From Lasiosphaeria ovina (taxonomy: Eukaryota > Ascomycota > Sordariomycetes > Sordariales > Lasiosphaeriaceae): a stretch of DNA of 64,000 nt. Both the position numbers and the translations under genes were made by a program. Below the pieces are notes generated by a model. That model was not told the DNA's origin. It ran no database searches and saw only the letters and a program-made list of their open reading frames with translations. Positions 9,157 through 50,072 of this stretch are shown here, piece after piece. The stretch lies in NCBI GenBank assembly GCA_033439765.1, contig JAULSN010000005.1, forward strand, positions 3,115,001 through 3,179,000. Reading direction: 5' to 3'. How positions within the stretch are numbered: position 1 is the first letter of the stretch; the number at the start of each line of letters is the position of its first letter.

Positions 9157-11100
9157 ATGAAGCAACTTGCCATCGGGCTCTCCAGATACACGGCCATAAG
9201 TGACGGGTACGACATGTGCTCTAGCCCCGTATCGCCCGCTAGCGCCACCGACGTCCACTACGAGAACTCGAGGCTGACGACGTGCTACAGCAAGGCCAAG
9301 GTACTAGAGTATATGGACAGCTTTGAGAAGAACATCCTCAACATGCACCCCATTATCCTACCCAGACAGCTACGAGCTCTCGTTCAGGTCTTCCTCGACA
9401 CGCGTTTGCAGGCGGGGCGCAAGGCACCCACGGCTGGCACCAAGCGTAAGCGGTCGCCCATCTCCGACCCAGACACAATCAATGCGCCTTATAAGCCCAG
9501 CAAACCTAGCATTGACGACGGCCTGGCACTGCTGGTATTAGCCCTCGGCAAGGCCTGCCTCCACAAGGGCAAAATGCCAGACATGGTCCGCTCCGACGGG
9601 CTCGACGGGGAACAGCAGAGGCAGCCGCGCGGGTTGCCAACCCAACGCTCGCCACCGGGCTCACACTCGACATCCGGCCTGCCGTCGCCCAAGCTGGAAG
9701 ACCGGAAGGGAAGGGAAGGAGCAAAGGAGCTGGGGCGGCAGCCGCCGTTCTGGGGCATACCAATGCCCAAGAGAGACAGCTCGCTCAAGAACTACGATGT
9801 CATCCCAGGCCTTGAATACTTTGCCCCCGCTACCGATATCCTCGGCAACCAGATGGCCGGCAGCACCCTAAAACACGTCTGGGCTCACATCCTGGCTGGG
9901 CTTTATTATGACCAGCTGGCGCGGCCCATCGAGAGCTTCACTCATATCACGGCGGCAAGTCGGGCGTTGCTGACGATATTCAGGCCGTGGGTATTGATGG
10001 ACCATCAACGACCAGATGATGGACGCGCTGACATACCTTAGGCTGCTTTCTCGATTGGAGTCATATAAAATTCGCGAGAGGCGGGACAACCAGCTGGTCA
10101 TCGCCTTCTGGACGTGTTCATGCCTAGAAAGGTGAGATGTCAACACCCACAATCTCAGCACATCAAGACTGACGAAGGGCCTCCTATAGCGACCTCCTGG
10201 CTGAAATGCCGCTCGTGCAGTCGGGTATCCTCAACTACGACATGTTGTATCCTAACATCTCGATGCTGAATGAGGGCGGGGTTGAGTTGCGTGTGTGCGA
10301 GTCGTATATCGGGCAGCTGTACTTGCATAAGCGCCTCAAAATGTTCGACGAGGGGCAGTCGGCGGACGGCGGCCCCGCGCTCAAATTCCGCCAAGATATG
10401 GTCCCGGAGAAGTGGGTGGGCAACCAATTCAAGTTCTGCGAGTCCGACCCTCCAGCGGCCGACATCCTCTCGGCTCGGCTGCGGGCTGCGTATTGGCACA
10501 CCCAGGTCGCCGCCTTCCGCCCGTTCATCAAGCAGATCCTACAGTTCTCTCACGGCATCGAGAATCACCTGGATGTCGAGCGCGCTGCCGACATTCGCCC
10601 GGACTTGCTCGAGCACGCTGGGATGGGTATCAATGCTCTGATCGAGAGCACCAGCGTCTTCCAGGGCCTGGCCAAGGGCGAGCGGCCCATCATCACTAAT
10701 GCCTTTGGCACCGCTCATGCGTAAGCTGGCCTCCTTTCCTGATCTCTTATAATGACTTGACTTGCCTCCTGTTCCCCTACCTTGAGAGGGTTGGTAGTTT
10801 GAGCACTTCCCCCCTTGGTGTGTACAGAGGAAGTGTGCATCACTGACGTAACCAAAAAACAGCCAATGGGGCAATATCCTTGTCCTCGCCGCTTGCTGCA
10901 AAAGTGATGTTCTGCGCCGCCACGTCGATGAGAGCGTACTCGGCACTCTCTTCAGCCGCACCATCGACTTCTTCGAGCTTATCTCGGTCGGAAAGAGCGC
11001 CCTCAACACCGACCTCAATATCCTACGCGCGCTTAAGAAGCGCCTGTTTTCTCACGCCCGCGAGCTAGCCTTGCGGAATGTCGGCCGGCCGGCCCCATGA
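9157..11100 (+). CDS. Fungal-specific transcription factor regulatory domain (C6 family), no visible DNA-binding domain
   Basis: Four exons, 9157-9986, 10042-10131, 10190-10720 and 10863-11100, with introns of 55, 58 and 142 bp and good branch sites; 562 aa. The protein has the layout of the C6-factor middle and C-terminal region. A VLALGKACLHKG helix is followed by NYDVIPGLEYFAPATDILG, the LESDLLAEMPL block spanning an intron, DILSARLRAAYWHTQVAAFRPF, and FGTAHAQWGNILVLAA near the end. From family knowledge this is the fungal_trans-type domain that normally follows an N-terminal Zn(II)2Cys6 cluster. The first in-frame ATG is at 9157 and no cluster is visible upstream. It may have lost its DNA-binding exon or act as a partner protein. 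Confidence 0.8.
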
Positions 11101-11287
11101 GTCAGGAAGCGCCAGGGAATTCGGGGCAATCGGGAGATAGTGTGATGGAGAAGAACGCCCATATTATATAAATACGGGGACGCTAGTTTCCCAGATGCAT
11201 GTTCCCGTTGTACAGCGGCTAGAAGATACAGCTAGTTACTGGCAATACATTAACAACTTAAGAACCGTCAGAAAATATGACAAAACC

Positions 11288-11944
11288 TTAATTGAGAAGC
11301 CAATCCGGGATATTCGACGTCGGTTCCCAAGTTGGGTGCTCATAACCCACCCACTCGACATAACACCTTGACCCATGAACAGCGTAAACTTTTTGGATCT
11401 GGTAGAACTCTGTATATCCGCCCTGACCTAGGATCATTTGGTCTCGGTTTCCATCCCAGAATGACCAAACTAAGTCGGGACAAATAGCTTGGATATCGGT
11501 TTCATATATCCATGCTTGTCTCTCTCCATTTTGAACTTGGAACTTGACAAGAGAATATGGGACGTCGTCGGGGTCTTCTAAGATGAAACGGAGAAGAGTC
11601 GATGATGCTGAGACAAGATCCGTAATGGGTACCTGTGACCTCAAGGCGCTTCGTAGTCGCCGAGTACCGGATTGCTTCAGCCGTGATTTAGTGGATTGTC
11701 TCGGCTGTTCAGCTGTGTGGTGGGCTTTCGTGATATCTCTCGGCTGCTCAGCTACGTGAGCTGGGTGGCGGGTAAAGACGGGTCGGTGACCGCCCCTTTT
11801 CATGAACCCTATTGGCATAATTGAGGATATTTTAGCGGGAGGAAGGCAGGAAAATGGTGAGACTGGTGATATAAAATCGCCGGCTATTACAATCTTCCCA
11901 CTTATATGGCTACTCGGAAACTCGGGGTTGGCAGAGCGCTTCAT
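11288..11944 (-). CDS. Chromodomain protein
   Basis: Single exon from an ATG at 11944, 218 aa. The first 90 residues are basic and low complexity. The last third carries a chromodomain-like motif: EFYQIQKVYAVHGSRCYVEW, then VGYEHPTWEPTSNI. From family knowledge, chromodomains fold as a three-stranded sheet plus helix and read methyl-lysine on histone tails, using aromatic residues such as the Tyr/Trp/Tyr seen here. Before it lies a stretch of about 70 residues (ILEDPDDVPYSLVKFQV onward) that I do not recognise. There is no integrase or reverse transcriptase around it, so a retroelement remnant is unlikely. It is convergent with the factor at 9157-11100. Confidence 0.7.
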   Translation of the reverse strand: MKRSANPEFPSSHISGKIVIAGDFISPVSPFSCLPPAKISSIMPIGFMKRGGHRPVFTRHPAHVAEQPRDITKAHHTAEQPRQSTKSRLKQSGTRRLRSALRSQVPITDLVSASSTLLRFILEDPDDVPYSLVKFQVQNGERQAWIYETDIQAICPDLVWSFWDGNRDQMILGQGGYTEFYQIQKVYAVHGSRCYVEWVGYEHPTWEPTSNIPDWLLN

Positions 11945-13162
11945 GATGCCACCTGGATGTAAGAAGGATTTGTGCTGAAAAGGTCCAGCGGTTGGTTATG
12001 TGGTTGTCCCTTCGTGGATAAGAAAGAATCCTTCCAAACACAGCCCCCTCGACGCTGCGCGGAGACAAAAACTGTCCCTTGCTGGCATCCTCGTGACGCT
12101 GTTCAATATACGAACCAGAAATGCGTATCCCGAGGGTATGGCAGTAGCTATAATTGGATAGGATTCCATGTACGACCATCATTCAGTATGGCTTTCCGCT
12201 TAGACGCTGGGTTTGGTTGACCGATTTGGTTCTTCTTTCCTCACTTGGAACTGTCAAGTCAACGGCGCGTCAATTGTGAGTGGCCGCACAGGCGGCACTT
12301 CGTGGCCGCATTAGGCTAGCGGTGCATCGTGGCCGCATCAGGCTAGCGGCGCATCGTGGTCGCATCATCGAGCGGCGCATCCAGTGGCACGCGACACAGG
12401 CTTCGTGGCACGCTAATGTCTAGTTAGCGGCGGGGTGATAAGACTACCCAATTACAGTTGTTACCATTCCGTCGGTACACGCTATCTCCCTTTTAGACAT
12501 CGACACATGTAGAGTACGCAGGATTCGCTCGCGCTTCTCAAGTGCCCTGTTTGGTTCCAACCTGTTTTTCAAAGACCTGTTAGGTGGCTTGGTAGTCCCC
12601 GGCAAGCTAAAAGGTACCTAACGCCACTAAACCAGGGCCCTTTTTCTGGGAGCCTGGCGCCACTTCATGGCTCTAACCCCGCATTGGCAATGTGTTGCCT
12701 GCCAGAGTGTGTAAAAATGAGGGCATTCATTCCTAGCGAATTTGACTGCGCGCCCGGGCATTTGATTGCGCCTGGGCGTTTGAGGGTGCAATTAAGGGTA
12801 CAATTGAGGGTGCGTACGGAGTATTGGTGTGTAAAAAAGATCACGAAGTAAACAAAGGACTTGGCCTTGTAGTCTCAGATCCTCCACTGGGTTGGTGTTT
12901 TGTTCCTTCAGGGGTCCACAGGGCTACAGGAGGGCCTGCAACCAATCAACAACCGAACCAAAACACCAGCGACGACTGGGCTGCGGTAAAGCGGGCTAGT
13001 CGTGTCAATGCACTGCCATTCCAACGTCTGGACATAACGGAGGCCTTCTTCATTCCCTCCATAGTAGGGGAGCGCTTATATTTTGGAACTAGCGTTAATT
13101 GTGTAGTCCCTTCCTCTTGCCGTGGTTTATATATACAGCACTTATGTCTCAATATACACTAA
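11945..13162. other. Gene-free interval with tandem GC-rich units
   Basis: Bases about 12285-12430 hold three to five imperfect units of CATCGTGGCCGCATCAGGCT with related GGCGCATC blocks. Similar CGATGCGCC blocks recur at 15490-15620 and 31715-31860. The remainder has no coding signal that I can defend. Confidence 0.55.
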
Positions 13163-13780
13163 TTGGTTGTCACAGTGTTTTCCAAGCTTTCAATAGTCTT
13201 AGATGTGGAAACCCTCGATCACGAAATCTCTCAATCTCGGTTGCATCCTTACTCTTGCAATCTCGCGGCCGTCTTACCCTTCACAGAGCCGTCCACGATA
13301 GGGCTATATTCTGCCTTTCCATTATTCCCTTTTATAGAGCTCTCTAATATCTCTTTATCTTCACGGCTACCCAACTTCCCAGAGCCATCCTCCGCTTTTC
13401 CATCCGCCTCCGCGATTCCAGAGCTCCCCAACTTCCTAGAGCCCCCCTTTCCCGAGCTTTCCTCGCCCGTAACAGGGCCACACAATCCCAAAAGAGAACT
13501 ACAACAGTGCGAGCCTTGTGAAAAGGATTTCACCAACCGCCCTAGCATCATACGACACAAACGAAAGCACGAGACTTCTCACCAGTGTAATATATGTGAA
13601 CGAAAGTTCAATAGACGTTGCGACTTTACAAAGCACAGAAAATTACACGGTTCGACTACAAAAACGCCCCTACGGTGCTGGATCTGTAATATGGAGTTCT
13701 TGAGGCCCTATGTTTTTAAAAGGCACATCTTATCAGCGAGCCACCAAATGGCTCAAGTTAGGGTAGCACCCAATTCGTGA
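13163..13780 (+). CDS. Three-finger C2H2 protein, 5' end unresolved
   Basis: The open frame is 205 codons. A Pro/Ser/Phe-rich N-terminal half is built of FPEL/PNF/EPP-like units. Three C2H2 units follow: QCEPCEKDFTNRPSIIRHKR, HQCNICERKFNRRCDFTKHR, and a wider one starting RCWICNMEF with a final SASH. The frame opens after TAA at a TTG, and no in-frame ATG exists before the fingers, so a 5' exon is missing from my model. The low-complexity half is paralogous to 30148-30714 on the other strand, which lacks the fingers. Probable nuclear DNA-binding protein. Confidence 0.65.
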   Translation: MVVTVFSKLSIVLDVETLDHEISQSRLHPYSCNLAAVLPFTEPSTIGLYSAFPLFPFIELSNISLSSRLPNFPEPSSAFPSASAIPELPNFLEPPFPELSSPVTGPHNPKRELQQCEPCEKDFTNRPSIIRHKRKHETSHQCNICERKFNRRCDFTKHRKLHGSTTKTPLRCWICNMEFLRPYVFKRHILSASHQMAQVRVAPNS

Positions 13781-14414
13781 CGGGCGTGCGCATAAAGAGA
13801 AGAAGCTTGCTTTATTTGGCGCGTCACAGAGGAAGCAAAGACGGCCTCGAGATGCAGCTGGCCGCCTTCCTCGGCTGTACCATCCCGAACTCTACCACTC
13901 AGATAATACAATATATTGCGCGCAAACACTTTATAATATACTCTCTGTCCCGTTGTCGCGAACCTCGTGAGCCGCTGGAGAGTCGGAATCGTCGTCGGCC
14001 CTACAGTCCCTGACAACAGCTGTGTAGGCTCATGTGTTTGAAACGCCACCAACAGGGGACGAGGACTGCGTCCCTCTGCTTTCTTCTTTCCCCCTCCCTC
14101 CGTATACCGCAATATACGAAAGTTCCCTGTTGCCCCAACTCTTGTGATATCTCACAAAAACTTGTCAGTTTTTGCCACTTCGTTACATAACCGCGCGCGT
14201 TCTCAGAGTCACCTTTCATGTAGAGGCTGTTGGGTGGAGGCTGTTGGGAGGCTGTTGGGAGGCTGTTGGGAGGCTGTTGAATGGAGCGAATAACCAACAA
14301 ATTCTACAGATTCTAGTATGCTCTCGGGCGGGATTCGGCAATCCCAAGGACAATGCAACCTGTCACAGATGGCACACTCTCAATCTACACCGTCTCTTCT
14401 CGAGATTCCTTAGG
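13781..14414. other. Spacer with an 11-12 bp tandem repeat
   Basis: Bases 14220-14282 repeat GGAGGCTGTTG about five times. Bases 13957-14000 match 56816-56860 (TCGCGAACCTCGTGAGC), so a small segment is shared with that distant locus. No gene is supported. Confidence 0.6.
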
Positions 14415-14856
14415 ATGAGGCCAGTTCCCAGGTCGATCCCCAGGTCAGTAATATTGGACCTGCCATTCCTAGATGAAAGGGCTAATCTTTTCGGGAAGAT
14501 CAAACATAAACCAGCTTCGCGTACTCGATGGAGGGTACCTGAGCCGGAGAAACCGTATGAGTGTGGATGGAGTGGTTGTAACAACCGCTACGATACTATC
14601 TCCGACTTGAACGACCACATCATACTGAAAGAACATGGTAGGAGGCGAACATGGGAGGGTAGGTCAATGAAGTCCATATAAACAAATCCCAAAACTAACC
14701 GTTGATGTAGATTTTCCGGAGTTCTGTGACTGGCAACAAAACCAGAGAGGAAGAATCCTTGAAGCCCCCCCATCAGTCATTTACTTCTATCTCGTCAAAT
14801 TACTCCCAGATTATGGGCAGCCAATTGGAATTGGAGGGCTCTTAATAGATAGATAG
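14415..14856 (+). CDS. Small Con7-related C2H2 protein
   Basis: Exons 14415-14637 and 14711-14856, 122 aa. The 73-bp intron has a GTAGGA donor, an ideal ACTAAC branch site and a GTAG acceptor. The single finger, YECGWSGCNNRYDTISDLND then HIILKEH, keeps the C-x4-C-x12-H-x5-H spacing and the CGWSGC style of Con7. It lacks the helix that follows the finger in Con7 and instead ends in PDYGQPIGIGGLL. The start is the first in-frame ATG; the frame is open well upstream, so a longer protein is possible. It is more diverged from Con7 than the gene at 265-1132. Confidence 0.65.
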
Positions 14857-20948: not shown

Positions 20949-20957
20949 ACTTAATAG

Positions 20958-23665: not shown

Positions 23666-23865
23666 GAGGGTTACATTGCAACTGGGCCTTTTCGGCTCTA
23701 TAGATGTTCCGGTTATTCGATCCGCCGCCAGAAAAATCTTCACTTTCCTTACAAGCCAGTCAGTCAACCTACATAATACACGCAGCTAGGTTGCCAGGGT
23801 CTCGTAGTCAAGCCGGGCAGTCAACCTGTTAACTGCAAGCTAGCTTCCCGGGTCTTGTTCAGCTG

Positions 23866-24141
23866 AACGGAGCCACCGTAGGCGAGCTTGCGAGCCGGAG
23901 GTGGCGTAGAGAGGCTGTCTCTTCTCTTTTACCGTGAGGGTGCCGAATGTTTTTCGAACGCTGATTGGCCAGTTTACGTCCGTGTCGAAATGGACTCGGG
24001 GGACTGGTCGATCGGATAATCCTCGGATTCCTTAAGCCGCGGAATACCGAGCGCAGCGAGCTGCCCGCCGCAGGCGCCCCCGGAGGGCTGCCGGAGGCAC
24101 CGTTCAGCGACCCCTTCCTGACTTGCCAGGTAGCTTATTTT
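23866..24141 (+). repeat. 275-bp MITE-like repeat, copy 1
   Basis: Near-identical to 45826-46101 in the same orientation. The start GCTGAACGGAGCC has an imperfect inverted partner near the end, GGCACCGTTCAGC, followed by a common 35-bp tail ending TAGCTTATTTTA. An internal hairpin (CACCGTAGGCGAGC / GCGAGCCGGAGGTG) is also present. A short frame crosses both copies but only because they are alike. Confidence 0.85.
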
Positions 24142-24179
24142 AGTCAAGCAGTACGTAAGTAAGTTGCCTAGGCTAGCCA

Positions 24180-29038: not shown

Positions 29039-29789
29039 TTCTTGGCTTTCGGGTTGTGAAAGAGCGGGCGGCCGGTGGGTGACAAGAGGAATGTGGCTCT
29101 TTGAGATTGCAAGCCCGATAGATCTCGAGAGGGTACGTTGGGAGTCTTGTAGGTCTGAAATGGTGAGCGCGCTGGCTCTGGCGGGTGCCTTATCTGCACA
29201 AAGTGCTTCAAGTGGGCTTCAAAAAACGGCTGGCATTTATAAAGGTGCCTAAGTACATTCAACAAGTAGGAAGAGGGCAACGCAGAAAATGCGTCATGAG
29301 GGCCTCGCAGGTTGGGGGGCGAGAGATGATACTCTAAGGAGAAGAGCCCCATCTATAAGTCGCATTTGCGAATTTGCGAACCATGGAAAGGCAACCACGC
29401 AAGTGGCAGGGGGAATTCTGAGGGCGCACTAGCGCCCCTCTGCAAATATATTGGCGACACACAGTATCGCGTACGGTAGGGGGAGGCCTAGGCTAGTGGA
29501 TCATTCGTCACGACTACTCTGAAGACCACTGGGTCGAAGCTGTTGGTCCGCCGATTGGAACAACCAGTAAATGCATCAAGCTCCAACTTTCCAGTCCCCG
29601 TGAGGATGGAGGGGGTGTGGTTTTAAAAGCTTGTGACCGGGAAGCCTCCTTCGAGCGCCGTCATGTATGTGTAGCAGCGCCTAGCCTAAAAGCCCTCGAT
29701 AGAGCCCTTCGTTCTGCTGTTCGTCGTTAGGTCCCCTAGTAGCTGCTCGTCGTTTGACCCGAGTCCGAGGTGGGATATCTTCGTGGCCC

Positions 29790-30030: not shown

Positions 30031-30147
30031 CAAGGGTTTGAGATGAGGTTTGTAAGGTATTGTTGTATTAATATATATTTCAAGGATCAAAACAAAGGGG
30101 GGCTGAGAAGTCACGAGCTGGGCCCCTTACCAGGCAGCTGTGGTAAA

Positions 30148-37450: not shown

Positions 37451-37818
37451 AGCATCTCTTTTCCTACCGGGCATCTCTTTTCCAATCGGGCATCTCTTTT
37501 CCTATCGGGCATCTCTTTTCCAATCGGGCATCTCTTTTCCTACCGGGCATCTCTTTTCCTATCGGGCATCTCTTTTCCAATCGGGCATATCTTTTCCTAT
37601 CGGGCATATCTTTTCCTATCGGGCATATCTTTTCCTATCGGGCATATCTTTTCCTATCGGGCATCTCTTTTCCAATCGGGCATCTCTTTTCCTATCGGGC
37701 ATCTCTTTTCCTATCGGGCATATCTTTTCCAATCGAGCATCTCTTTTCCTACCGAGCATCTCTTTTCCTACCGGGCATCTCTTTTCCTACCGGGCATCTC
37801 TTTTCCCACCAGTGCATC
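37451..37818. repeat. 19-bp minisatellite array 2, in a gene promoter
   Basis: About 19 units of GGGCATCTCTTTTCCTATC and variants (TACCGGG, CAATCGG, CATATC). It ends about 40 bp before the ATG of the Zn(II)2Cys6 gene at 37859. Both array 2 and array 1 end in CATCTCTTTTCCCACC, and arrays 1, 2 and 3 begin with AGCATCTCTTTTCC when read in this orientation. Confidence 0.95.
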
Positions 37819-37858
37819 TCGTTACCATACACTTCTTTTGATTACTGAAAATCTTCCA

Positions 37859-39207
37859 ATGTCAAGCCTGAAAACGAACGGTACATGCCAGCGCTGTGCC
37901 ACTCGGCATCAGCAGTGTAATGGAGGCGAGCCCTGTTCGCGGTGCGAACCATCCAAAGTCAAGTGTTTCTACCCAACACGCAAACCATGGAACGCCAAAG
38001 TGGTCGAGCTGCCGCGGCCTATTTTGAAATCGGCCAACCGGATCCTGGCCGATGCCAGCCGGATTATTCAGTCAGTGAAGATGTTGACAGGTCACGGGTC
38101 TGCACGAGTCTACGATGTCGAAGATGTCGTGAATGGGCTGATAGAGTTTGCTCGGAATCCTGCCGATATGCGAAGCCTCGCTGATACTCAGTTGTGTGAG
38201 ACGTTCCAGGCTTGGGCGGATACAATCCACACATCTTTCACCGAAAGACCTGGACTTGATATGTCCAGTGAGTCTACGCCATCTCGAGAGGTCGCCTTAC
38301 AAGCACCTGTACCGTTGTCTTCTTCAGCCACCTCCCTACAACTCAGCCAAGCAAGCCTCGACCCGGGCCCGATGGCCCAGATGCACACTATTCCGGGTAC
38401 AGCGTTACCGACACACTTCTCTCCCAGCCAAGCAACCTATGCTCCTCAGCCGGGTTCGAGCCGCGAGATACTTCCGGACAGTAAGTTTCCTCCCAAAATT
38501 GTATTGGAGCCGCAGTCGAGATTATCCTAAACCCCCAATACAGGAGACAGGTCCCCCAATGCCGCTTCCACAGGTTCCCAAGACCTCTCATCCGCACTAA
38601 CGGGCGGCCTGGACGCGGCATCGGGTGGAAGAAAACGGCCAAGAGTAGATACAGAGAGTAGGCATGCTTGATGCGATTCTTCCGGCGAGAGGCTAACCAA
38701 GACACCACTCTAGGTGCGCCCGTCACCGGCCTTTCTCGACTGGCGCCTATCGTACCTGGTCCGTATGCCGCCGGCACGACTCTGAATCATCCAAGCCTCG
38801 GTCCAGCGCCAGCGCCTTGGCTGTACGGCCCGGTCACTTATACTGCATTATTCGACCAGCCACCGGTGAATAAGATTGAAGAACATTTTCCCGGTATCAT
38901 TGCAGATAGGGCGAAAATGAGGCAGAGTTGCCAGAACGGCCGGTTTTATTCCGACATTATACGATGGTATGTCTACAGTGATGCGCATGCTGAGATGGAC
39001 ATCGACCTCGGCGATATCGATGTCGAATCTTGCCGGCAAGCCGCAGGCCAAATAAGAGCGAGTTTGGAGCATATACATGGCATGGTTAAAACGGAGCAAG
39101 TTTGGAAGTTGAGAGTTGTTTTACCCCCCAAATCTGGTGGTCCTCTTCTTAATGCTCTATTCGAGTTTCCCTATACCGAGGAGGTCTTAAACTTAACCAC
39201 CATCTGA
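37859..39207 (+). CDS. Zn(II)2Cys6 transcription factor, 409 aa
   Basis: Exons 37859-38480, 38544-38657 and 38714-39207; introns of 63 and 56 bp, the second with a GCTAACC branch site. The cluster lies at residues about 10-37: CQRCATRHQQCNGGEPCSRC, then EPSKVKC. This gives six cysteines with C-x2-C-x6-C spacing in the first half and a basic following segment. From family knowledge this cluster binds two zinc ions and CGG-type DNA sites. The middle is Ser/Pro/Gln-rich; the last 110 residues are helical (SCRQAAGQIRASLEHIHGMV). No fungal_trans domain is visible, so it is a short C6 factor of the secondary-metabolism regulator style. The 19-bp array forms its immediate upstream region. Confidence 0.8.
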
Positions 39208-39585
39208 ATCACTTGAACACTCTGCCCTGCTGGAACAGACTTGGAGGCATGGCTCAGTAGTTCTTGGAAAGGAACCTCTTCGTTCCCAATCTTGATACTT
39301 CCTTTACCAAATACACCTTGTGCTACCCATTCTATCTCTCGATCCTCGTCTTCTGCTGGGAAAATGTGAAAGAGGATAGGTTCCGGTTGTCCACTTAGTG
39401 CGCGATCTCCCTAGTTGAGTTAGTAGAGACAAAGAAATGGAGTCAGGGTACACACAACGTCCATAATCGAGTCTCGGCTATACAAATAGTCTCAAGTAGC
39501 GTGGTTGTTGTTCGAAGGTCAAAGGGGTCAGAGTAGAGATATCTGATGTTTGCCCAACTTTGCGCGTAATTCCGTCGCAATCCAT
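39171..39585 (-). CDS. Small acidic protein, tail-to-tail overlap with the C6 factor
   Basis: Exons 39585-39484 and 39410-39171 with a 73-bp intron holding a perfect TACTAAC branch site; 113 aa from an ATG. The second exon reads clearly as protein: EPILFHIFPAEDEDREIEWV, then GSIKIGNEEVPFQELLSH. The donor (GTATAG) is the weakest part; another donor about 50 bp downstream (GTGTGT) is possible, which would change the exon-1 frame. The last 37 bp overlap the 3' end of the C6 factor on the other strand. No family recognised. Confidence 0.5.
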
Positions 39586-40591
39586 ATCTTTGGCGAGGTT
39601 TCACCTTGGTACTGTGCGGGGCAGATCCATAACGTTATCGGCTGGTTGCGACGCGGAGATGATTTCTTTGTCATGTGACATCGGCACTGGAAGTGCGGGG
39701 ACCGGCCGAAGTGTAAATGGGCAAAACAGACATTCGAACTTTCAACAAGAGATTCTATCCAGAGCCGAAAGTCAGAGCAGACGAAGACTTTTTAACGATT
39801 TTGGGGTGAGTCTCGATCTAGCTAAGCTACGTACATACCAAAGTACTTGTCTTAGTGTACTCCAAGCAGGGATCGCCCAATCTAACACACTCCGCAGCGT
39901 TTCCCTAGTCCCTGCTTAACAGCGACGACAAACGCGGTATCAACGCCACTCTGCAGATCATACGCCCCGGACGGCACCTCTTGAGCAGCCCTTGCAGGAA
40001 GTCATGCAGCCGGCCGGTGGAGGGCGGGAGCTAGCGCCCCCAGGCTATCCATCCCGCACCGGCTGCCGCCATAAAATGACAGCACGCCGCCCAAAGTTCA
40101 ACGGGTGGAGGCTGCAGCAAACAAAGGAGCGGGGGGGAGGGGGGGTTGCTCTATCTGCTGGGCCTATAGTATTGCAATTGGGATCAGTTGTGTGCGCTTG
40201 AGGCAGAACAGTCCGCCTCATGCGCGTGGAAGAGCCGTAATGCGGATGACTTGCACAGGGCTGTAAACCCACGGTTTGGGCTGATCCTACTGGGCACGGC
40301 GGTACGGCGACTATGGACAGAAGAAACAGAAGAGGCGGGTGTGTGTGCAGTATTGTGCTGCAGTAGTCGGGTCTAGCCACTACGCCCTAGCTATGACCAA
40401 CGACAAGATTAAGGACAACGAGAAGGGCTTCCATGAGAGAAGAGCGGAAGGTCCGAGTATTCTCAGCGAATCACGCATATGTGATCCCTATCGAATCTAG
40501 GCGCAGCCGTGGTATATAATAGCTCGATCGTCAATCTTCTCTTGCCCCTGCTGCTATTATCGCTCAAACTCGAGATCAACAACATACAAGC
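39586..40591. other. Spacer with dispersed repeat copy
   Basis: Bases 40149-40260 are the second copy of the 110-bp repeat at 7187-7300. Coding-like phrases at 39600-39720 may belong to a 5' exon of the gene at 39171-39585. From about 40520 the sequence is shared, inverted, with 55440 downward. Confidence 0.55.
40149..40260 (+). repeat. Dispersed ~110-bp direct repeat, copy 2
   Basis: Matches 7187-7300 closely. It begins CTATCTGCTGGGCCTATAG and diverges after the GGATGACTTGCACAGGG stretch. Non-coding. Confidence 0.85.
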
Positions 40592-40933
40592 ATGACCCGC
40601 AACTTCTCAATTACAAGCTGGAACTATGGGTACATCATTCGAGCCACGCCACCCTCTTCTGAAGCTGACAATTCAGTAGATAATACCGGCTACCAGACCG
40701 AGTCACGTCCTCATACGAGTGTGACAACGACCAACAACGGCGAGGCAAATTATCAGGTCAAATGTGTTGGATGTGGAGCGCATTTTGTTTTCCCTACCGC
40801 GGAAGTTGAGTGCGATGGGGCGAGATGTATTAGGAAGAGCTGTAAATGGCAGTGTTCGAGTTGTAGACGCTATATCACCCTTGCGGGTTGTCTTGGGGTG
40901 ATCATATGTGCTGGGTACTCACACCACTACTGA
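40592..40933 (+). CDS. Cys-rich small protein with possible C-terminal membrane segment
   Basis: Single exon from a clean ATG, 113 aa. The N-terminal half is polar. Residues about 55-90 contain CVGCG, then CDGARCIRKSCKWQCSSCRR. That gives seven cysteines arranged mostly in pairs, consistent with one or two zinc sites. The end (YITLAGCLGVIICAGY) is hydrophobic and may be a membrane or buried segment. A paralogue lies inverted at 55010-55354. The two copies share about 100 bp of upstream sequence, so promoter and gene were duplicated together. No named family recognised. Confidence 0.65.
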   Translation: MTRNFSITSWNYGYIIRATPPSSEADNSVDNTGYQTESRPHTSVTTTNNGEANYQVKCVGCGAHFVFPTAEVECDGARCIRKSCKWQCSSCRRYITLAGCLGVIICAGYSHHY

Positions 40934-41477
40934 GGAAGCCGTTTGAAGTCAGCGTAGCCGCATAGCTTGTAATTAGCAATAGCTGTGAAGAGAAAATCTC
41001 GGCGAGGAGCACAACGGTCAATTGCAAGACAGTTGTGAGGGTCTTCTACCTGCGCGTACGAAGCTGCGGTACACCATGTACACTAGTGGACAGCAGCGAA
41101 AACTGAGAAGCGATAATTTTAATTACGTACGGGTTTGTTTAACGTCTCCGGAACAGCTTGGTCTCCCGAGTTTGGGCGACTAAGGCCCATTGGCTGGTGT
41201 CCGCTGAAGCAACGCCGATTCGGGGGGAAGGGGCGTTGAGTTGTCTTGTTGTTTTCACCGACTCCACGGCCCACTCGCCCCCGTCAGCACCACCAACGCC
41301 ACTCGCCCGTCCCACAAGGCCTCAACCCCTCCTTAATGCACTGCTTCCGAGGCTCGCTCTCCTGGCCTCCGCCGGGCTCAGCTACCGGGGGTGTGGTTTA
41401 AACAAACTTGTGCTGTGCCCCCTGACTAATCTTTCGCGGTGCTGGAGATCATAACAGGCTTCCATTCATTCCTCCCA
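40934..41477. other. Shared tail and dispersed element copy 2
   Basis: Up to about 40975 the sequence is shared with the 55-kb copy. Bases 41092-41240 are a left-half copy of the element seen in full at 50310-50570. The frame at 41158-41454 is a low-complexity artefact. Confidence 0.6.
41092..41240 (+). repeat. Dispersed element, partial copy 2
   Basis: Shares GAAAACTGAGAAGCG, GTACGGGTTTGTTT, CGAGTTTGGGCGACT and GGCTGGTGTCCGCTGAAGCA with the complement of 50310-50452. It lacks the half present in copy 1 at 3052-3165. Confidence 0.75.
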
Positions 41478-41975
41478 CTAGAGAGCTTCATTCCCTGAAT
41501 TAACCGTGTTTTGCACCTTTTCGATCATACTTTTGTGCGCGTACAAGCGTTTGCCCACCATCAGTACAAAACATCCTGCCAAGGCGAAGCGTGTCATGTA
41601 AATGTAGTCGGAAGTGATCACCCATGATGGGTGATATTTGTTCACCAACTTGAAATACACCTCAACCCCAAGCTCGCCGATCCCTCCTCCTACTATAAGA
41701 CTTTCCCATGGTGTGGCAGGGACGTGGAGAGTCGCGGTCCTCCCTTCTGCAATTTTGGTTATCTGAGAGAATTCCCAAGCATCGATGATCTCGGAGCGGC
41801 CTTGGAGACTTCATCAGTAGAATAAATCAGTTATTGGTACGAATATCTTACGCATGCTCTCCAGGTAGCGCATAGGTATAACCAACGGCTTTGTCAGGAC
41901 GCCGGGAGTATTCGAAGGGTTGTGCCGTAACACATCCTTAATAAAAACAACTAGAAGCTTCTCGTCTTGTTCCAT
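41478..41975 (-). CDS. Small membrane-associated protein, 148 aa
   Basis: Exons 41975-41852 and 41800-41478 with a 51-bp intron (GTAAGA donor, TACTGAT branch site, CCAAG acceptor). The ATG exon reads MEQDEKLLVVFIKDVLRHNP. Exon 2 contains a Gly-rich ESLIVGGGIGELGVEV segment and one clear hydrophobic segment (YMTRFALAGCFVLMVGKRLY) followed by a basic helix. It is probably a single-pass membrane protein. No family recognised. It is divergent from the coding sequence at 42087. Confidence 0.65.
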
Positions 41976-42086
41976 TGTCGGGAAGTACTAAACTCCACCT
42001 TTCCACCTTTCCACCTTCCCCTCTAAACACCTACATACCTCATTGGAACACAAATTCTTCGGTACATCGCAACCACAGCAAACACC

Positions 42087-42475
42087 TTGCCCATAGAGTC
42101 AATCGAGGTCCTCGAGGAACACTTTGAGCAACTTGCGGACGTCAAACGGAGGATTGATGACCAGATCAAGCAGCAGCTTGGGAGCAAGCGACGTCAACTA
42201 GGCAAACAACCCAAGTTTGATCCACGTTGGATGTTGGAGCCCGACACGGTCAAAACAGAACTGGCAGCAGTCGTCAAGTTCGTTAAAACCAACAGACAGT
42301 CAGACCAGCCCGCTAAACTAACGACTCTTTGACAACGCAATTCCTGGATAGTGTTGGTACACTGCTTGGCACCTTTCCAGAAAGCTCACCCGGACCAACG
42401 CAAGCACTAGTCGTCGCTCAACCAACTCCGCAGCACGATCCCAACAGGTACCCGTCCCCTGCTAGCTCATAGTTA
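42087..42475 (+). CDS. Helical protein, gene model incomplete
   Basis: The frame 42087-42332 reads IESIEVLEEHFEQLADVKRR, then DDQIKQQLGSKRRQLGKQ, clearly a charged helix. It begins at TTG with no ATG upstream, so a 5' exon is missing. A second coding-like stretch in another frame (SVGTLLGTFPESSPGPTQAL) runs to about 42470; an intron with a CTAACG branch site and a GATAG acceptor could join them. Its 3' end meets that of the JmjC gene at 42473, convergent. No family recognised. Confidence 0.45.
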
Positions 42476-44834
42476 CAGTCCTACCACCCGATTTCGTAAC
42501 CGCATGGTATTCCGTTGGATATTTCCACGTCTTCCTACTCCTTTCTGGACTTCTACACCGTCCCCAGATCCGGCTACATCTCCTCGCTCACGCCGGTCTG
42601 CTGGTTGGCCACCTCGCTTTCCAGTTCCCCTGGACCGTCTGAGTTTACCACCTGCTTCTAATATGTTCTTGAATTCAGGAAGCTGGCTTTTAGGAGCCCA
42701 TGGCCAAACTGGAACATCCTTTGTCCAAAAGTCTGCAACCTTCTCCATCTTTCTAGGGTACTCCTCAGCCACATCTTCATTTGAAAGGTATGGGAATTTA
42801 ATAGCGAATTGCGTGAGCTTCGCAGTACGGAGCATGTCGCGGCTGTCCCAGTGCATGGTGCCGCTCATTAGTACATTAGTCCGCGACCCTACAGCATGGA
42901 GGGTCCCAGATGGCATAATGAGCGAGCAGCCAGGGTAAAGTAAGAAAGCAATACATGAGCTGGTCGGTAGGCAATCCGATTGAGCATATTGCAGGATATT
43001 ATCAATCCCGAGGCCAGCCCACGTATGCCATAACTTCAGACCATCATCACAGAAGACCGTAGTGATAACGCCGTGCTGGTCGATATGGGGAAGCGAGAAT
43101 GCGCCTTTCGTAGCGCATAATTGAAACGAAACACACTCAGAAAGGTCTGATACTAGTCGTTTGCTCTTCTTGCCGCTCTGAAGGTCAGACTTTATATCCC
43201 GAAGAATCGAATATGCTGGTATTCCTTCAAAACATAGCAGATCGGGGTTAGATTTGTATCCCGCTAGGTTGAGAAAGTTTATTGGGCCCTTCGACGTAGC
43301 AAAGAGTTCAAGAGCCTCCCCTGTCTTCATGGATCGGGGGTGAGATATCTCCCCGGCTGGATCATCATACACGTGTACGTCGATGTTGTCACGAGTACGT
43401 AGGAAGTCGAGATAATCTGGTATGTTGAGGCGCTTTTGATCTGGATTCAGCTCTGCCGGGATAAATATAGGTAGTCGGGGAGGGCCAGCTTGGAGGATAG
43501 ACCGTGCATCGTCGAGTGAACACATAACATACTTATTTGTTGGCTGGTCATCCCATTTCCTCGCCCCGTATTGCTGTCTCGTGATAGGTTGGCCAATAAT
43601 GCTTTCGTTGAGAATTTCGATGTAGTCCGGGAGTTCGGAATGGAGCCTCGATCCAGGAAAAGCCGAATTTAGGAGATTGGCTGTGTCTTTCTTAGCACAA
43701 GCTAGTTCAATGTCGGTCCTTCTGCTATAGCGAGTGAATAAGTCCATGGCGTAACTGTCATTTCCGTGCAGCTTCTTTAAAGGTCGGTGCAGATCAGGCA
43801 GTGAATGCCTGCGTTTTGGCTTCTGGCTAGGCTCTATTCGGGTCGGCAAGGGCCGCTCCTCCGACATCTCTGTGGACAGCTCTGTGGACGGCGGCTCCGT
43901 GGATAGCGACCCTATGGACGACCCTGTGGGCGACGGCTGTGTGGATGGCGACGACGACTCTGTGGGTAGCTGTGTGGATAGCGACCTTGTGGACGACCCG
44001 ATAAGCGATGGCTGTGTGGATGGCGACCTTGTGGACGACTCTGTGGGTAGCTCTGTGGGCGACGGCTGTGTGGATAGCGACCCCGTGAACAACTCTATGG
44101 GCGATCCTGTAGATAGCTCTGTGGTTAGCTCTGTGGGCGGCGGCTCTGTGGACGGGAAAGGAAGGTATATGGACGGCTCTAGAGACTTGTCCCGGGTATG
44201 TTGTGTGCGGCTCTAAAGGAACGGCCTCACCAGATCTCAACGGAATCTGTAGCGCCGGTGATGGCGGTAACGTTGATGTATCCTGATGCTCTGCCCAATT
44301 GGAAAGGCTGGGTTCTAAACGGAGATCGATCCTGGCCGTTTTGTCGACATTCCAAGCAAATTCCTTCAACACCATACAACCAAACTTGTCAAAGCCATAC
44401 CCAAGCGGTAAGACCAACTCTTTCTCGGGTAGGGTCACCGTACGTAGGTTAGTTAAATCCTGCATTCGGATAGGGCTCGAAGTTTCCAGCGGAACTCTAA
44501 GAGAAGAGGATTCTTGAAGCCGCGACAACCTCGATGTGTTCAGCACCTTGATAGCTTCCTCCCAACATGGGAACGTGTACGCGGCAGTGCGAAGCAAGTC
44601 ACAGAACTTCCTTCCCTTAAGAGCCCATCGGTAGTGCTGGACAATATCTCGACCCCACAACACCGCCACTGTCTTTAGACAGGAGAGGCATCTAGGATTC
44701 AAGTCTCTTCCTTGCCCAGCAATGCCGGGGAATAGCTGCCACTTCTTCGCACTTTCAGTCTCGGCTGGTTTGTCTTTGTTCTGACCTGAGATTTTGTCGG
44801 CCGACAGCGTACGTCGGTTATTCGGTCTGGCCAT
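42473..44834 (-). CDS. JmjC-domain (cupin) protein, candidate histone demethylase-like oxygenase
   Basis: Exons 44834-44231 and 44106-42473 with a 124-bp intron (GTGAGG donor, GCTAACC branch site, CTACAG acceptor); 745 aa. The N-terminal 200 residues include a CLSCLK pair and a WALKGRKFCDLLRTAAY helix. A linker of about 65 residues is built of degenerate S/T/P/E units (STQPSPTELPTE). The C-terminal part shows the JmjC pattern: FSLPHIDQHGVITTVFCDDG gives the H-x-D iron ligands and SLIMPSGTLHAVGS the distal His. A GLKLWHTWAGL segment and NVLMSGTMHWDS follow the fold. From family knowledge these are Fe(II)/2-oxoglutarate oxygenases acting on histones or other proteins. The iron triad is intact, so activity is plausible. 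Substrate unknown. Confidence 0.78.
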
Positions 44835-45369
44835 GGCGAGGGCGATGCCCTTGTCGTCTCGGTGGTGGGGTTGTCGTCTTGATTATCAGGATGGGAAGAC
44901 CGAGTGGAAATTTCCACCCTCAGAGTGGGTCACTAGCAGGATCGCTGAGGTAATCCATCACGTGTTCGCCAGATCTTCGTCGCCTTGACCCGTCCCGAGC
45001 CAAGAATCTCAAATCACGACTAAACCCTCACAGGGGTTGCAGCTACGGCTAGGAAATTCACCACCTTGAAACCATTTGATAAGCCTCTCACTCAGAGTAA
45101 TGTCCATTCGCTCGCTTTCCTCGCTCGCTTGTCCATTTGCCCGCTTTCCTCGCTTGCTTGTCCATTCGCTCGCTTTCCTCGCCTGCTCTCCTCGCCTCGC
45201 TACTTTCTCGCTCCCTCAGATGGAAAAGCTTTCCGCCGCTGCCGCTGCAGCCAATGAGTCAAAAGAGGCTAAAGAGAAATTATTTGACTTGCTTACCCAA
45301 GTGGGAGACCACGCCGCTGCCCGGAAGCTCACCTGCAGACAGTCCCTTCACAGCCCTATGCATCGATCG
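44835..45369. other. Spacer with ~34-bp tandem repeat and small ORF
   Basis: Bases 44895-44935 are a partial 60-bp satellite unit. Bases 45110-45195 repeat TCGCTCGCTTTCCTCGCTTG with TGTCCATT spacers about three times. From 45219 an ATG frame (MEKLSAAAAAANESKEAKEK) is protein-like for about 45 residues, then runs into the satellite; it may be a truncated small gene. Confidence 0.45.
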
Positions 45370-45770
45370 CAAAAAGATGTAACAGACAGGTAATTTTACG
45401 GCCACCACGGCCCGCCGTTCAGACAGAGACCCATTCGAGGGGTGGAGATCTCCACCCAGTCACCTTGTTTGCCTACCTTATCTACCCACCTTGTCTGCTC
45501 ACCTTGGATCTCTTGGTTCTGTATCGATGAAGAATGCAGCGAAATGAGATGACTAATGTGAATTGCAGATCGGTGGTGGCCGTGGTTGACCTGACTGGGT
45601 GGAGATCTCCACCCCTCGAGTGGGTCTCTGTCTGGTGGCCGTGGTTGACCTGACTGGGTGGAGATCTCCACCCCTCGAGTGGGTCTCTGTCTGGTGGCCG
45701 TGGTTGACCTGACTGGGTGGAGATCTCCACCCCTCGAATGGGTCTCTGTCTGAACGGCGGGCTTGGTAAG
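45370..45770. repeat. 60-bp satellite, locus 2, with inverted terminal unit
   Basis: Three direct units at about 45570-45755 match those at 29790-29965. At 45417-45455 an extra unit lies in the opposite orientation. Its flank (45370-45416, AAGATGTAACAGACAGGTAA) is the complement of the flank at 29990-30025. The locus is thus bounded on both sides by the same terminal sequence facing inward. Confidence 0.88.
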
Positions 45771-45825
45771 CATGTATTTCAGCAACCGGACGGCAGCGGC
45801 GCTCGTTGACTACTGATTCCGCTGA

Positions 45826-46101
45826 ACGGAGCCACCGTAGGCGAGCTTGCGAGCCGGAGGTGGCGTAGAGAGGCTGTATTCTATAATACCGTGAGGATGC
45901 CGAATGTTTTTCGAACGCTGATTGGCCAGTTTACGTCCGTGTCAAAATACAGGACAGGGACTGGTCGATCGGATAATCCTCGGATTCCTTAAGCCGCGGA
46001 ATACCGAGCGCAGCGAGCTGCCCGCCGCAGGCGCCCCCGGAGGGCTGCCGGAGGCACCGTTCAGCGACCCCTTCCTGACTTGCCAGGTAGCTTATTTTAT
46101 A
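45826..46101 (+). repeat. 275-bp MITE-like repeat, copy 2
   Basis: Second copy of 23866-24141, differing mainly between the GAGAGGCTGT and GACTGGTCGATCGG blocks. Ends at TAGCTTATTTTA, after which the flanks differ. Confidence 0.85.
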
Positions 46102-46214
46102 GTTGACTACCAGTGTTATGGCTGCGGCATTCTGGTTGCCTGGATCTTGGCAGTAACGAGTCCCGAGTTGAGTATGCGCCGGGAGCCGGGAGCCCGGCTG
46201 ACCCAAATAATACG

Positions 46215-46335
46215 GATAAATTGTGCTTATTTGGCCCACCTTGTCTGCCCACCTTGTCTGCCCATCTTGGCTGCCCACGTTGTCTACCCCACCTTATCTG
46301 CTGCCTACCTTGGCTGCCCATCTTGACTACGCATC
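46215..46335. repeat. 13-14 bp tandem repeat
   Basis: About eight units of CCCACCTTGTCTG with variants (CCATCTTGGCTG, CTACCTTATCTG). Related units in reverse orientation sit at 22455-22505 and forward ones at 45463-45505. Confidence 0.8.
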
Positions 46336-46676
46336 TTGCTTGAAAGGGCCGAATACCACCTCAGAGGATGCCAGCTGAAACGCTGGCAAACTTGTACCTG
46401 GGTGCGGCCTGCCGACGAACCAGCCGAAGTCTCCATTCTACAGATTGCCGAGGCCAACGACAAGACAGTGGAGACCGCGGAACGCCAGACTATGTGGTAT
46501 TCTTCGTCCGCTGCGGCGATATCTGGGCTCTCTGGGTCGGAGATATGCGTCCTGAGGTCGATCACGGCAATGGCGACGACTGGGCAGACAGCAATTTCTA
46601 CAAGGACGATATCCCTTTTGAGCAGTCTGTACATCTGCAGGACGGTACCCATACCATCTTCAACGTAATTTTGTAG
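46336..46676 (+). pseudogene. Frameshifted coding fragment
   Basis: Two consecutive plus-strand frames look coding. The first reads DEPAEVSILQIAEANDKTVE; the second, from about 46480, reads TPDYVVFFVRCGDIWALWVG and ends FNVIL-stop at 46676. No splice signals join them, so a single indel is likely. It follows directly on the tandem repeat, which probably removed its 5' end. No family recognised. Confidence 0.4.
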
Positions 46677-46850
46677 AGGTATCCAACAGGCACAATCGTC
46701 GCCAATGAACTCGTTAACCCGAGTGAGGGATTGAAGGCGGCCACCCTGATGAAACTTCCATAGTTGACGTGAAGAAGGCAAAGCGACTGTGATGGCATTT
46801 CTGGGACCTAGCCAGGTCTGGTTTGAGGCAAGGCGTGGAATACGGGATGA

Positions 46851-47850
46851 TTATACTTTTCTAGTATCCGGAAACGAAGCCACAGATTCCGTAACCGTTG
46901 ATGGCTGTCCATTTGTACCGCGTGTCTCAAATCCAACGTGCAGTCCAATGGTCGTGCTTCGCATCTCATCGACCTTTTCCACCACTTCCAGTGTATTCTG
47001 AAGTATCATCCTCGTCCATCTCATAATTACGTCCTCAATCCCAAAAACCGAGACGATAGGTATCCCTAGTCTCTATCCGTACATCCAAAGGAGGTGTAAT
47101 ACATTTACGTTGTTCAAAGTGCCTTATGAATTCTCTCCGCCTCTTAAACTCCGCGCCACAATACTCATACGGACACCTTAGGACGCCGGGGTAATTGGGT
47201 TTGTTATCGTCGACGACGTCGTGCAGCTTATTCGGGTCGTGAAGCTGAGTCGTGTGTGCCCGGCATTTCTCGATTTGGGCTGATAAGATCTGTTCTTCGA
47301 ACTACCGCAATGGGTTAGGAACTGAGAACTTAATGGTACGTTGCACTTACCCGGTACGTATCGAGATGAAAAATGGTTGAAGAAGGAGAACGAGGAGAAG
47401 GAGAACGAGAAGAAGGAGAACGAGAAGAAGGAGAATGAGAAGAAGGAGAACGAGAAGGAGGACGAGAAGAAGGAGAACGAGAAGATGAATGGGGCGAAGG
47501 ACAAGGAATAGATACAAGGAGGAAGTGGCAACAAAACGATGGTAGTGCCCAGCGTAAGCAAATTTATACTTGTGGCCGCGGTCGTCGCGACTCAGACGTA
47601 CACCTCTCCCGAGATTGAAAATATCAGCGCGGTGAAATTCAGCCACCTGGTAGTCTTTCCTTAAAGAAGATGCTGAAGAGACTTCAACCCCCTGGTATTC
47701 TTAGATTATATCCCCTGCTAAAAAGTCACGAACTAACATTTTAAATCCCTGGAGAGGTGTAGGATCCCTTATTCCCTCAAAAGTTTCCAAAAAAACAAGT
47801 TTGCGCAGCTTCTCCCATACTGCCGCACCCTAGATTGTGAACTTCGCGAG
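46851..47850 (-). pseudogene. C2H2 protein gene with premature stops
   Basis: On the minus strand, coding text runs from about 47850: VWEKLRKLVFLETFEGIRDP, then YQVAEFHRADIFNLGRGVRL. A Ser/Pro/Arg-rich stretch is encoded by the GAGAAGGAGAAC-type microsatellite at 47385-47490. After an intron at about 47350-47300 comes QILSAQIEKCRAHTTQLHDP and a finger, CPYEYCGAEFKRRREFIRHF. In-frame TAG and TAA codons interrupt the 5' part, and a TGA lies after the finger; TAG/TAA fit C-to-T change of CAG/CAA. The exact ends and the last exon are unresolved. No ATG found. Confidence 0.5.
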
Positions 47851-47906
47851 GTTAGCTTCGTCTCTGTCTTGGCCGCGCGCATTTCGCCTCGTGCGGCGTC
47901 CTCCTC

Positions 47907-48910
47907 ATGGTAGAAAGTCACTGTGGTCGTCGCCAACTACGCGACACGCTCCCTGCCGGTAGTCGGTACCGCCCACCGCCGCTCGCCCGCCGCATAGCGG
48001 CGGTTGTACCGGAAGCTGGCCGCCGTCCCATCAACCAGGCACGCAGACCCCGATCAGTTATTAAACAACCAGTAGATACGCGTCCGCCGACCATATTTGG
48101 TAGTCATCAAAGGCATCAGGGGCGTAGGTCCGACAATTCAGGGGTTAATACAAAGAGAAACCCGCAGCGGGCAGCACGGCCAACGAGACCTTTGACCGAC
48201 GGAGTATGCCAATGCACAGGGAGTGAAGGCTGTGGAAATGGTTGTCAAAATAGAGCAGAACGGATTCGATGCGACGATTCGAACTGTGGGCTCGAAAGAA
48301 AGTGCGGCAATCACGTCCCGGCGTTTCCACCGCAAGAGGTTTTCGAAACTCTGGATAATGACGGTGAGCGTGGTCGTGGTCTTATGCTTCTAGTGACTGT
48401 TCCGCCTGAAACGATTCTCCAAGAATATACTGGGAAGATCATCAAAGAAGGCAGAGAATATAGGGTAAGAGGAACAAAGAGTAATATTATAATTTATGAT
48501 TTGCCTAACGTTACTAGGGAGAATATATTATGGAATCCGACGGTATTCGTATAGACGGTACGAATGGATCCAACGCCAAATTCGCCAACCACTCTTGTGA
48601 TCCAAACAGCACGATCGAGAAGTGGAAAATATCTGGTTCAACCCGGTTCTTTCTTACTTCAAAGACCACTATTCTGGAGTCTCAAGAGGTCACCTTTTCC
48701 TATGGCGATGCGTTCCCGCTCACGAAGTGCTTGTGCGGCGCGAGCAAATGTCTGGGATGGTTTGGAAAGGGGGCACGAAAACTCGGAACCGACAGGACAA
48801 CGCAGAAAGTCAGCCAAGAACACCACTGGGAGACCTTTGACGACTTCGTTGAAAAGGATCATTGGGGAATGTGGAATGGCCTACCATTCTTTTCACCATA
48901 CTTCACGTAG
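47907..48910 (+). CDS. AWS-SET-postSET histone lysine methyltransferase-like protein
   Basis: Exons 47907-48464 and 48518-48910 with a 53-bp intron (GTAAGA donor, CCTAACG branch site, CTAG acceptor); 316 aa from an ATG. Residues about 98-135 form an AWS module with seven cysteines (CQCTGSEGCGNGC, then CDDSNCGLERKCGN). The SET core follows: RGRGLMLL near 150, EYTGKI near 170, IDGTNGSNAKFANHSCDPNS at the catalytic NHSC motif, and EVTFSYG. The post-SET CLCGASKC closes it. From family knowledge AWS-SET enzymes (Set2/Ash1 type) methylate H3K36. All hallmark residues are present. It is much shorter than Set2 and lacks its C-terminal RNA-polymerase-binding part. The N-terminal 95 residues are Arg/Pro-rich and unrecognised. 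Confidence 0.85.
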
Positions 48911-49248
48911 GAGGTCAATCCGCGGTTCGGATCTCGGCGCCAGATGGTTGCCGTCATCGCCGTCATCGCCGCCGTCGCCGTTTAGGTTACTGTGGGACGT
49001 GAACTCGGGGGAGGTTGAATAGTAGTAAACTTGTGACAGTTTGTGAGAAGGGCTCGGTGCTTCTTCTGTTGTGGTATGGGAGAGAGTACAAAATACCTCC
49101 GGGGCGCGGGGCCTGGCGCAGACACCTGGGACGGCGGTATGCCATGGGCGAGAATAGTCTTGATTTGCTTTTAGATGCGTCCGGCTCAAGTGCTTAGAAT
49201 GACATTGCTCGGTACTTTTGAACTTGTAGGAGGGAACATGCAGATTGA
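48911..49248. other. Spacer between convergent genes
   Basis: A GTCATCGCC trinucleotide-style run near 48949-48980 is the only pattern. The short frames are not supported. Confidence 0.5.
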
Positions 49249-50072
49249 CTACTCGCTACTAGTAATATACTCCCCACTCTCTCGAATACGTTCAAGTAAG
49301 CCTTTCTCTGGTGCGAACCGCATCTTCCCCTTCCCCTTCCCCTTCCTAATTTGATGAATCCGGACGTGCCCATCTTGCAGGTACTTGACGCAACGTCCAC
49401 GTCCGAAGGCGCTGACCTGGCAATTGGCACATGGCCCGTCGACTCCTCCGTCCCCAATAGAACACATCGGCTTCCCAAACCGATTTGGATACTCGGATAA
49501 GCATGAGACACAATGCGCTGTATCACTCACAGGTGCCGAAAGTGGTAAATACCCAATTTCCTTTTGTTTTTTCGGCGGAATGTACACTTCCAACATCTCT
49601 TTGCCCTGCGAGTCCTTCGAGTCATAACTGCAATATGTATTATCTTTAATACATGTGGTACATGGCGATCCCCTGTCGCAGGATTTGTTTGAGTTTGTAC
49701 ACCTTTTGCACCGGTACAACTGCGTTTTGGATGAATGATCGATCTTCTCGTCCGAATGGTGATATGTCGAAATGTGCTCTTCTAAGAGTTTTTTGGCATA
49801 GTGAAGACGTCCGCAAAGAGAGCATTGATGCTTCAGTTGGGATTTATGTTGTACTTGTATGTGTTTATCGAGTCTCTCCTGCGTCTTAAAATCTTGTCGG
49901 CAGGAAGCGCATTTGTACGGCTTGTCCACTGTATGGGATCCTTGGTGCTTGTTGCTAGTGAAAGTTTTGTGGCAAATAGGGCATTCGTACGGCGTCTAAC
50001 CCTCATGTATTAGTTTCTTTTTGCCCAATTCTTCATTTTGAGATGGAATATACATACTCTGCGGCGACTCAT
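49249..50072 (-). CDS. Hybrid zinc-finger factor: three C2H2 fingers plus Zn(II)2Cys6 cluster
   Basis: Exons 50072-50058 and 49995-49249 with a 62-bp intron (GTATGT donor, ACTAAT branch site, GTTAG acceptor); 253 aa. The tiny first exon supplies MSRRR. Three C2H2-style units follow: YECPICHKTFTSNKHQGSH (short), YKCASCRQDFKTQERLDKH and HQCSLCGRLHYAKKLLEEH. Then comes a binuclear cluster, CKRCTNSNKSCDRGSPCTTC plus IKDNTYC. A further Cys-rich stretch (CVSCLSEYP, CSIGDGGVDGPCANC) follows and the end is basic (GKGKGKMRF). From family knowledge, C2H2-C6 fusions are known in ascomycetes but are usually much larger with a fungal_trans domain. This one is compact. Confidence 0.8.

Follow-up and report, generated by a model that had tools for sequence, protein, structure and literature searches.

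Neighbouring SET and JmjC genes among DNA-binding factors in a duplicated, accessory-like region of Lasiosphaeria ovina

A 64,000-nucleotide stretch of the Lasiosphaeria ovina genome (contig JAULSN010000005.1, designated C28, positions C28:3115001-3179000; hereafter the window) was found to carry, 4 kb apart, a gene for a SET-domain protein of a histone methyltransferase class and a gene for a JmjC-domain protein of a demethylase class, together with DNA-binding factors. The explanation that we tentatively favour is that the window covers the greater part of one copy of an accessory-like island, which was duplicated and has gathered diverged histone-methylation enzymes and DNA-binding factors, as retained duplicates acting on facultative heterochromatin. 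The original prediction had placed a reader, a writer and an eraser of histone methylation together in accessory DNA as a self-contained chromatin-control set. The writer-class and eraser-class genes were found as neighbours and the reader is only probable, and a self-contained set was not established.

The SET gene (47907-48907, plus strand) has two exons, 47907-48464 and 48518-48907, separated by a 53-nt intron (48465-48517; GTAAGA...CTAAC...TAG), and its spliced product of 316 residues matched Pfam SET with 43.8 bits. The best relatives among solved structures were SETD2 (1.8e-14), NSD proteins and ASH1L. The product contains the motifs GRGL, EYTG, NHSCDPN, FSYG and CLCGASKC as well as seven AWS-like cysteines, which lined up with SETD2 by eye; the AWS part had no Pfam match at E<=0.1. 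As judged from the sequence, the gene was confirmed to be intact and of the SETD2/NSD/ASH1 class, with the core motifs present, in line with the predicted AWS-SET methyltransferase with intact catalytic motifs. The SET domain appears nearest to those of histone H3 lysine 36 (H3K36) methyltransferases, and H3K36 activity is predicted. Pfam matched SET only, and no SRI or WW domain, which are traits of SET2, was found in the product, so the gene was not classed as SET2. Other matches within the genome were a truncated copy at C28:1775086 and SET genes on contigs C12 (32%) and C30 (41% over 87 residues). A protein search with the product returned one weak match (E 3.3e-4); this search needs shared 5-residue words and missed even SETD2-type proteins, so the single weak match is not proof of an orphan.

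The JmjC gene (42476-43867, minus strand) comprises 464 codons and encodes a KDM2/KDM7-type fold with complete HxD...H ligands. As predicted, the iron ligands were intact: H261, D263 and H324 did not vary across the 18 rows of alignment A1, made up of the window protein, its database copy P0001 and 16 relatives. In the structure model, the KDM2/KDM7 demethylase fold extended over residues 66-415 at approximately 12-16% identity. Pfam gave no match at E<=0.1 for the 579-residue JmjC frame or for P0001, and no PHD, CXXC or F-box partner was found, so the gene was not classed as a KDM2 or KDM7 orthologue. The model indicates a KDM2/7-type catalytic fold, and lysine demethylation is predicted for the protein. 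The named relatives are fungal, with proteins of Bombardia bombarda (45%) and of Apiospora marii (43%) the nearest, which points to a sordariomycete; N-terminal zinc fingers were present in many of the relatives. Fragments of the family were located on C28, C30 and C32, and a C-terminal partial copy of the gene was found at C28:1021477-1021897. This family, which Pfam misses in the window protein and which is often fused to zinc fingers in relatives, merits its own study.

A further JmjC gene is present in the right flank. A 919-residue frame at C28:3181570-3184329, starting 2.6 kb past the right end of the window, contains a JmjC domain closest to KDM4D (1.4e-15) and 18.9 kb from the window SET domain. 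JmjC was the sole domain matched in this flank gene, and SET was not found. A single 1408-residue open reading frame (ORF) on C32 (L049 2085-6311) encodes both JmjC and SET, the latter without NHSC, and the flank gene (on L044) matched this ORF in JmjC and in one later region. The possibility that the flank gene had lost its SET half and that the window SET is this half was rejected, because NHSC is missing from the SET in the C32 fusion ORF and present in the window SET.

A second region, termed island 2 (C28:1740001-1790000), lies on the same contig 1.4 Mb from the window. Blastn (E<=1e-5) was run between it and the window, and blastp (E<=1e-6), which used every stop-to-stop piece of at least 50 residues, took in the 10-kb flanks of the window as well. 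At the protein level, Myb (63%), Zap1-type C2H2 (57% and 49%), SET (70%, truncated), BCS1-like AAA (89%) and PF02373 JmjC (31%) were common to both regions, and at the DNA level they shared an Est1-like region (79-91%; 26682-29459 of the window, minus strand) and a DNA transposon (74%). Myb, C2H2 and the Est1-like region were collinear between the two, and the arrangement of the JmjC and BCS1 genes is consistent with a single inverted block. Both regions hold JmjC, SET and DNA-binding factors together. The chromodomain, C6, hybrid and regulator genes of the window had no match in the 50 kb of island 2 compared. Within this genome, gain or loss of the predicted set as a block was not borne out: island 2 has counterparts of two of the seven named gene kinds, namely C2H2 and SET (truncated), and its JmjC belongs to another class, which argues against one indivisible set. 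The island-2 Est1-like frame matched EST1_DNA_bind (4.5e-12), and the window Est1-like pieces tested gave no match alone. The BCS1-type AAA pieces (L044 1694-2197 and L042 574-1368) are 89% identical versus 31% for the JmjC genes of the same block, which suggests either conversion or very different rates.

Constraint on the two enzyme genes was estimated by the Nei-Gojobori method (NG86) from replacement (dN) and silent (dS) changes per site. The SET gene and its island-2 copy showed a dN of 0.142, a dS of 0.321 and a dN/dS of 0.44 over 83 codons; the stretch 48148-48400 was chosen since the island-2 copy has large insertions further upstream. The C-terminus of the JmjC gene and its partial copy showed a dN of 0.021, a dS of 0.106 and a dN/dS of 0.20; a few codons beyond the stop were counted as well. 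By Fisher's test on rounded counts, p was 0.014 for SET and 0.0007 for JmjC, and the evidence for constraint is modest, as these are pairwise tests against partial copies only.

Under the favoured explanation, the SET protein would add, and the JmjC protein would remove, H3K36-type methylation, and a K36-class writer and eraser may plausibly act together. The island enzymes may work in addition to the core ASH1/SET2 and demethylase genes and may bias the state of facultative heterochromatin in duplicated regions with little transcription, both islands among them, with zinc-finger proteins as possible recruiters. They would be retained duplicates in a common compartment rather than a fixed multi-gene machine. 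Several observations weigh against this explanation. The window SET has a shorter insert than SETD2 between EYTG and the ID motif, it carries a lysine before NHSC where the C30 SET gene has an arginine, and its AWS part went without a Pfam match as described above. Among the copies, no KDM2/7-type gene was matched in the compared part of island 2, the island-2 SET copy is truncated ahead of the catalytic core, the C28 copy of the JmjC gene comprises a C-terminal fragment only, and the window Est1-like frames are shorter than the island-2 copy, a sign of decay. A more ambitious proposal is that the paired paralogous islands carry their own histone-methylation kit (a K36-class writer 4 kb from a KDM2/7-fold eraser, erasers of the KDM4 class, recruiters that bind DNA and, perhaps, a chromodomain reader) and set their own chromatin as a selfish or adaptive epigenetic compartment. 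We consider this unlikely. An island in which opposing K36-class enzymes are neighbours would offer a direct system for testing self-controlled silencing of such DNA.

The neighbourhood of SET and JmjC might also be an accident among many regulators. Genome-wide (51.7 Mb in 32 contigs), there were at least 27 matches to SET, 7 to JmjC (PF02373), 82 to Chromo (many with stops), 134 to Zn_clus (best 150 of 193 candidates) and 25 to C2H2 (best 150 of 153 candidates), all of these counts being lower bounds. Measured against the genome, the window had 1 SET with 0.03 expected per 64 kb (from at least 27 matches) and 1 Zn_clus among the matches listed with 0.17 expected (from at least 134); no C2H2 finger of the window was among the 25 matches listed, so C2H2 enrichment was not shown. 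The window JmjC and the window chromodomain were outside the 7 PF02373 and 82 PF00385 matches listed, respectively. For a simulation with 20,000 uniform placements, the C32 fusion ORF was dropped from both lists, the window JmjC was added, and fragments belonging to its family (on C28, C30 and C32) were omitted, giving 26 SET and 7 JmjC. A SET fell within 6 kb of a JmjC in 4.3% of placements, a value uncorrected for the choice of families or distance, and this frequency and the abundance of regulators (the Zn_clus count above) are compatible with chance. Two JmjC and one SET within 26 kb, which is unusual, arose in 0.025% of the same placements, and JmjC and SET pieces occur together again in island 2, though the regions are related and not independent. 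Both frequencies are post hoc, with distances set after the data, and uniform placement is unlike that of real genes. On balance, we regard chance as an improbable explanation.

The main rival, ahead of both chance and a degenerate giant transposon, is that copies and fragments from several fungal families pile up here and that the chromatin genes are decaying without joint function, which we treat as a serious though doubtful possibility. It would account for the scattered fragments common to island 2 and other contigs (72-96% DNA identity), the truncated SET and JmjC copies, the dispersed repeats and the shorter Est1-like frames. However, the SET, JmjC, C6 and C6-regulator frames of the window are open, and both SET and JmjC have fewer replacement than silent changes per site. 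A degenerate Starship-type element, with the island as giant-transposon cargo and a decayed tyrosine-recombinase captain, seems very unlikely to us. The nearest match to DUF3435, a captain-type family, was found at C28:3277691-3278960 on the minus strand, pointing towards the island, but it lies 99 kb beyond the window in two pieces with 4 TAG, and 8 TAG plus 7 TAA, respectively; with 18 DUF3435 matches in the genome, one this near is unsurprising.

The chromodomain protein claimed in the original prediction, and with it the reader, is probable at best. The putative gene (P0019; 11291-11944, minus strand, 218 residues) is a probable divergent member: it had no Pfam match at E<=0.1, and PF00385 at E 0.14 was the sole family up to E 10, with 12.6 bits against a curated Chromo cut-off of 25.1. 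The motif V-x-W-x-G-Y...TWEP was recognised by eye, and the best PDB chain was the Rhino chromodomain (E 0.47). No significant support was obtained from Pfam, NCBIfam or PDB sequences, and with a purpose-built chromodomain hidden Markov model from two sequences the window protein scored no better than shuffles. The single-sequence AlphaFold model was poor (predicted local distance difference test, pLDDT, 43.5), and a protein search returned the genome's own copy only. Elsewhere in the genome, a chromodomain match neighbours a DUF3435 match on the same strand at two places, C30:2602822-2603860 and C7:503516-506350, with distances of about 90 bp and 2 kb, respectively.

Among the DNA-binding factors, the predicted short Zn2Cys6 (C6) gene was recovered at 37859-38530 on the plus strand (Zn_clus 26.5 bits, cut-off 21). 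In the C2H2/C6 hybrid (49252-49995, minus strand), both domains were detected, though both were under the Pfam curated cut-offs; a candidate intron at 49996-50057 suggests an exon upstream. The gene predicted to encode a C6 regulatory domain (9157-10724, plus strand) has an intact frame over three exons, 9157-9986, 10042-10131 and 10190-10724, with introns chosen by us, but its unspliced pieces matched no Pfam family up to E 10, so the C6-regulator name was not confirmed. Several C2H2 genes had been claimed, two of which passed the cut-off: a zinc-finger frame at 13163-13777 on the plus strand (zf-C2H2 29.1 bits, cut-off 25.2) and a frame with two Zap1-type fingers at 488-1198 on the minus strand (37.8 bits, cut-off 27.2). 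A Zap1-type frame at 14148-14678 (plus strand) and a weak single C2H2 frame at 47038-47301 (minus strand, E 0.009) were below it. Both Zap1-type frames have a relative in island 2.

The description of the region as satellite-rich was overstated, as tandem repeats cover 5.81% of the window, compared with 4.97% and 2.8% of the right and left flanks, respectively, 3.14% of island 2 and 1.66% of 16 gene loci. Arrays of a 19-bp satellite were found at 4271-4492 (inverted, with a variant unit), 37452-37806 and 52475-53012, and all 26 genome-wide matches of the exact 19-bp double unit were inside the window. The second array stops 52 bp short of the C6 start codon, so a change in its copy number could alter the C6 promoter. 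An inverted duplication of approximately 0.8 kb (90-91%) at 3737-4554 and 52413-54462 includes the satellite and brackets the interval 9157-50072, and a further piece of it lies at C28:3353992-3354192. A DNA transposon that has terminal inverted repeats and contains a DDE_1 frame occupies 59737-61840 (minus strand). A dispersed repeat of about 284 bp was present at 45817-46099 and 23858-24142, with another copy at L050 4846-5128; it made up 37 of 45 among the matches listed for the 20-kb query 37830-57829, on many contigs (best 39 of 287 candidates scored). Two small cysteine-rich open frames, inverted relative to each other (40523-40930 and 55013-55366), showed 87% DNA identity and no Pfam match up to E 10. 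An ankyrin-repeat frame (56923-57498) and a weak kinase-like frame (6357-7040) lie near the window ends.

Contig C28 is about 4.1 Mb long and is not known to be an accessory chromosome. The GC content was 0.511 in the window and 0.554 in L051, located 10-20 kb to its left, whose long frames we take to encode a protein kinase and an ALG2-type mannosyltransferase. Two stretches to the right of the window had GC contents of 0.476 and 0.452 and TpA/ApT ratios of 1.28 and 1.52, respectively, and were read as resembling the outcome of repeat-induced point mutation. The accessory-like island probably begins approximately 10-15 kb left of the window and continues beyond its right end; its accessory nature is something we infer from one strain. 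An AT-rich centromere was rejected in view of the window GC content. The window had no match to Rfam at gathering scores, and no tRNA was found by a tRNA search.

A full-text literature search, judged from titles and the openings of abstracts, gave no mention of a fungal island in which a SET gene is linked to a KDM2/7-type gene. Filamentous fungi have a JmjC-SET family with both domains in one protein (PMC2474616), and the C32 1408-residue ORF is a member by architecture. In contrast to that family, the flank JmjC gene ends without SET, and the window SET, which retains NHSC, belongs to another class. The window JmjC shares with KDM2/KDM7 the modelled fold and the HxD...H ligands, but differs from them in its low identity, in having no PHD, CXXC or F-box found and in having many relatives with N-terminal zinc fingers. 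Like fungal ASH1/SET2, the window SET has NHSC, post-SET cysteines and preceding AWS-like cysteines; it differs from them as a short protein of 316 residues with a shorter SET insert, an AWS part unrecognised by Pfam, and neither of the SRI and WW domains of SET2. Kmt6b and Kmt6c of the Fusarium oxysporum accessory chromosomes are extra histone methyltransferase copies reported to act on H3K27 (PMC12774646), and the likeness to the window is that a methyltransferase has been duplicated outside the core genome. Unlike these H3K27-acting enzymes, the window SET falls by sequence into the H3K36 class, has a JmjC gene nearby and lies on an island of a 4.1-Mb contig.
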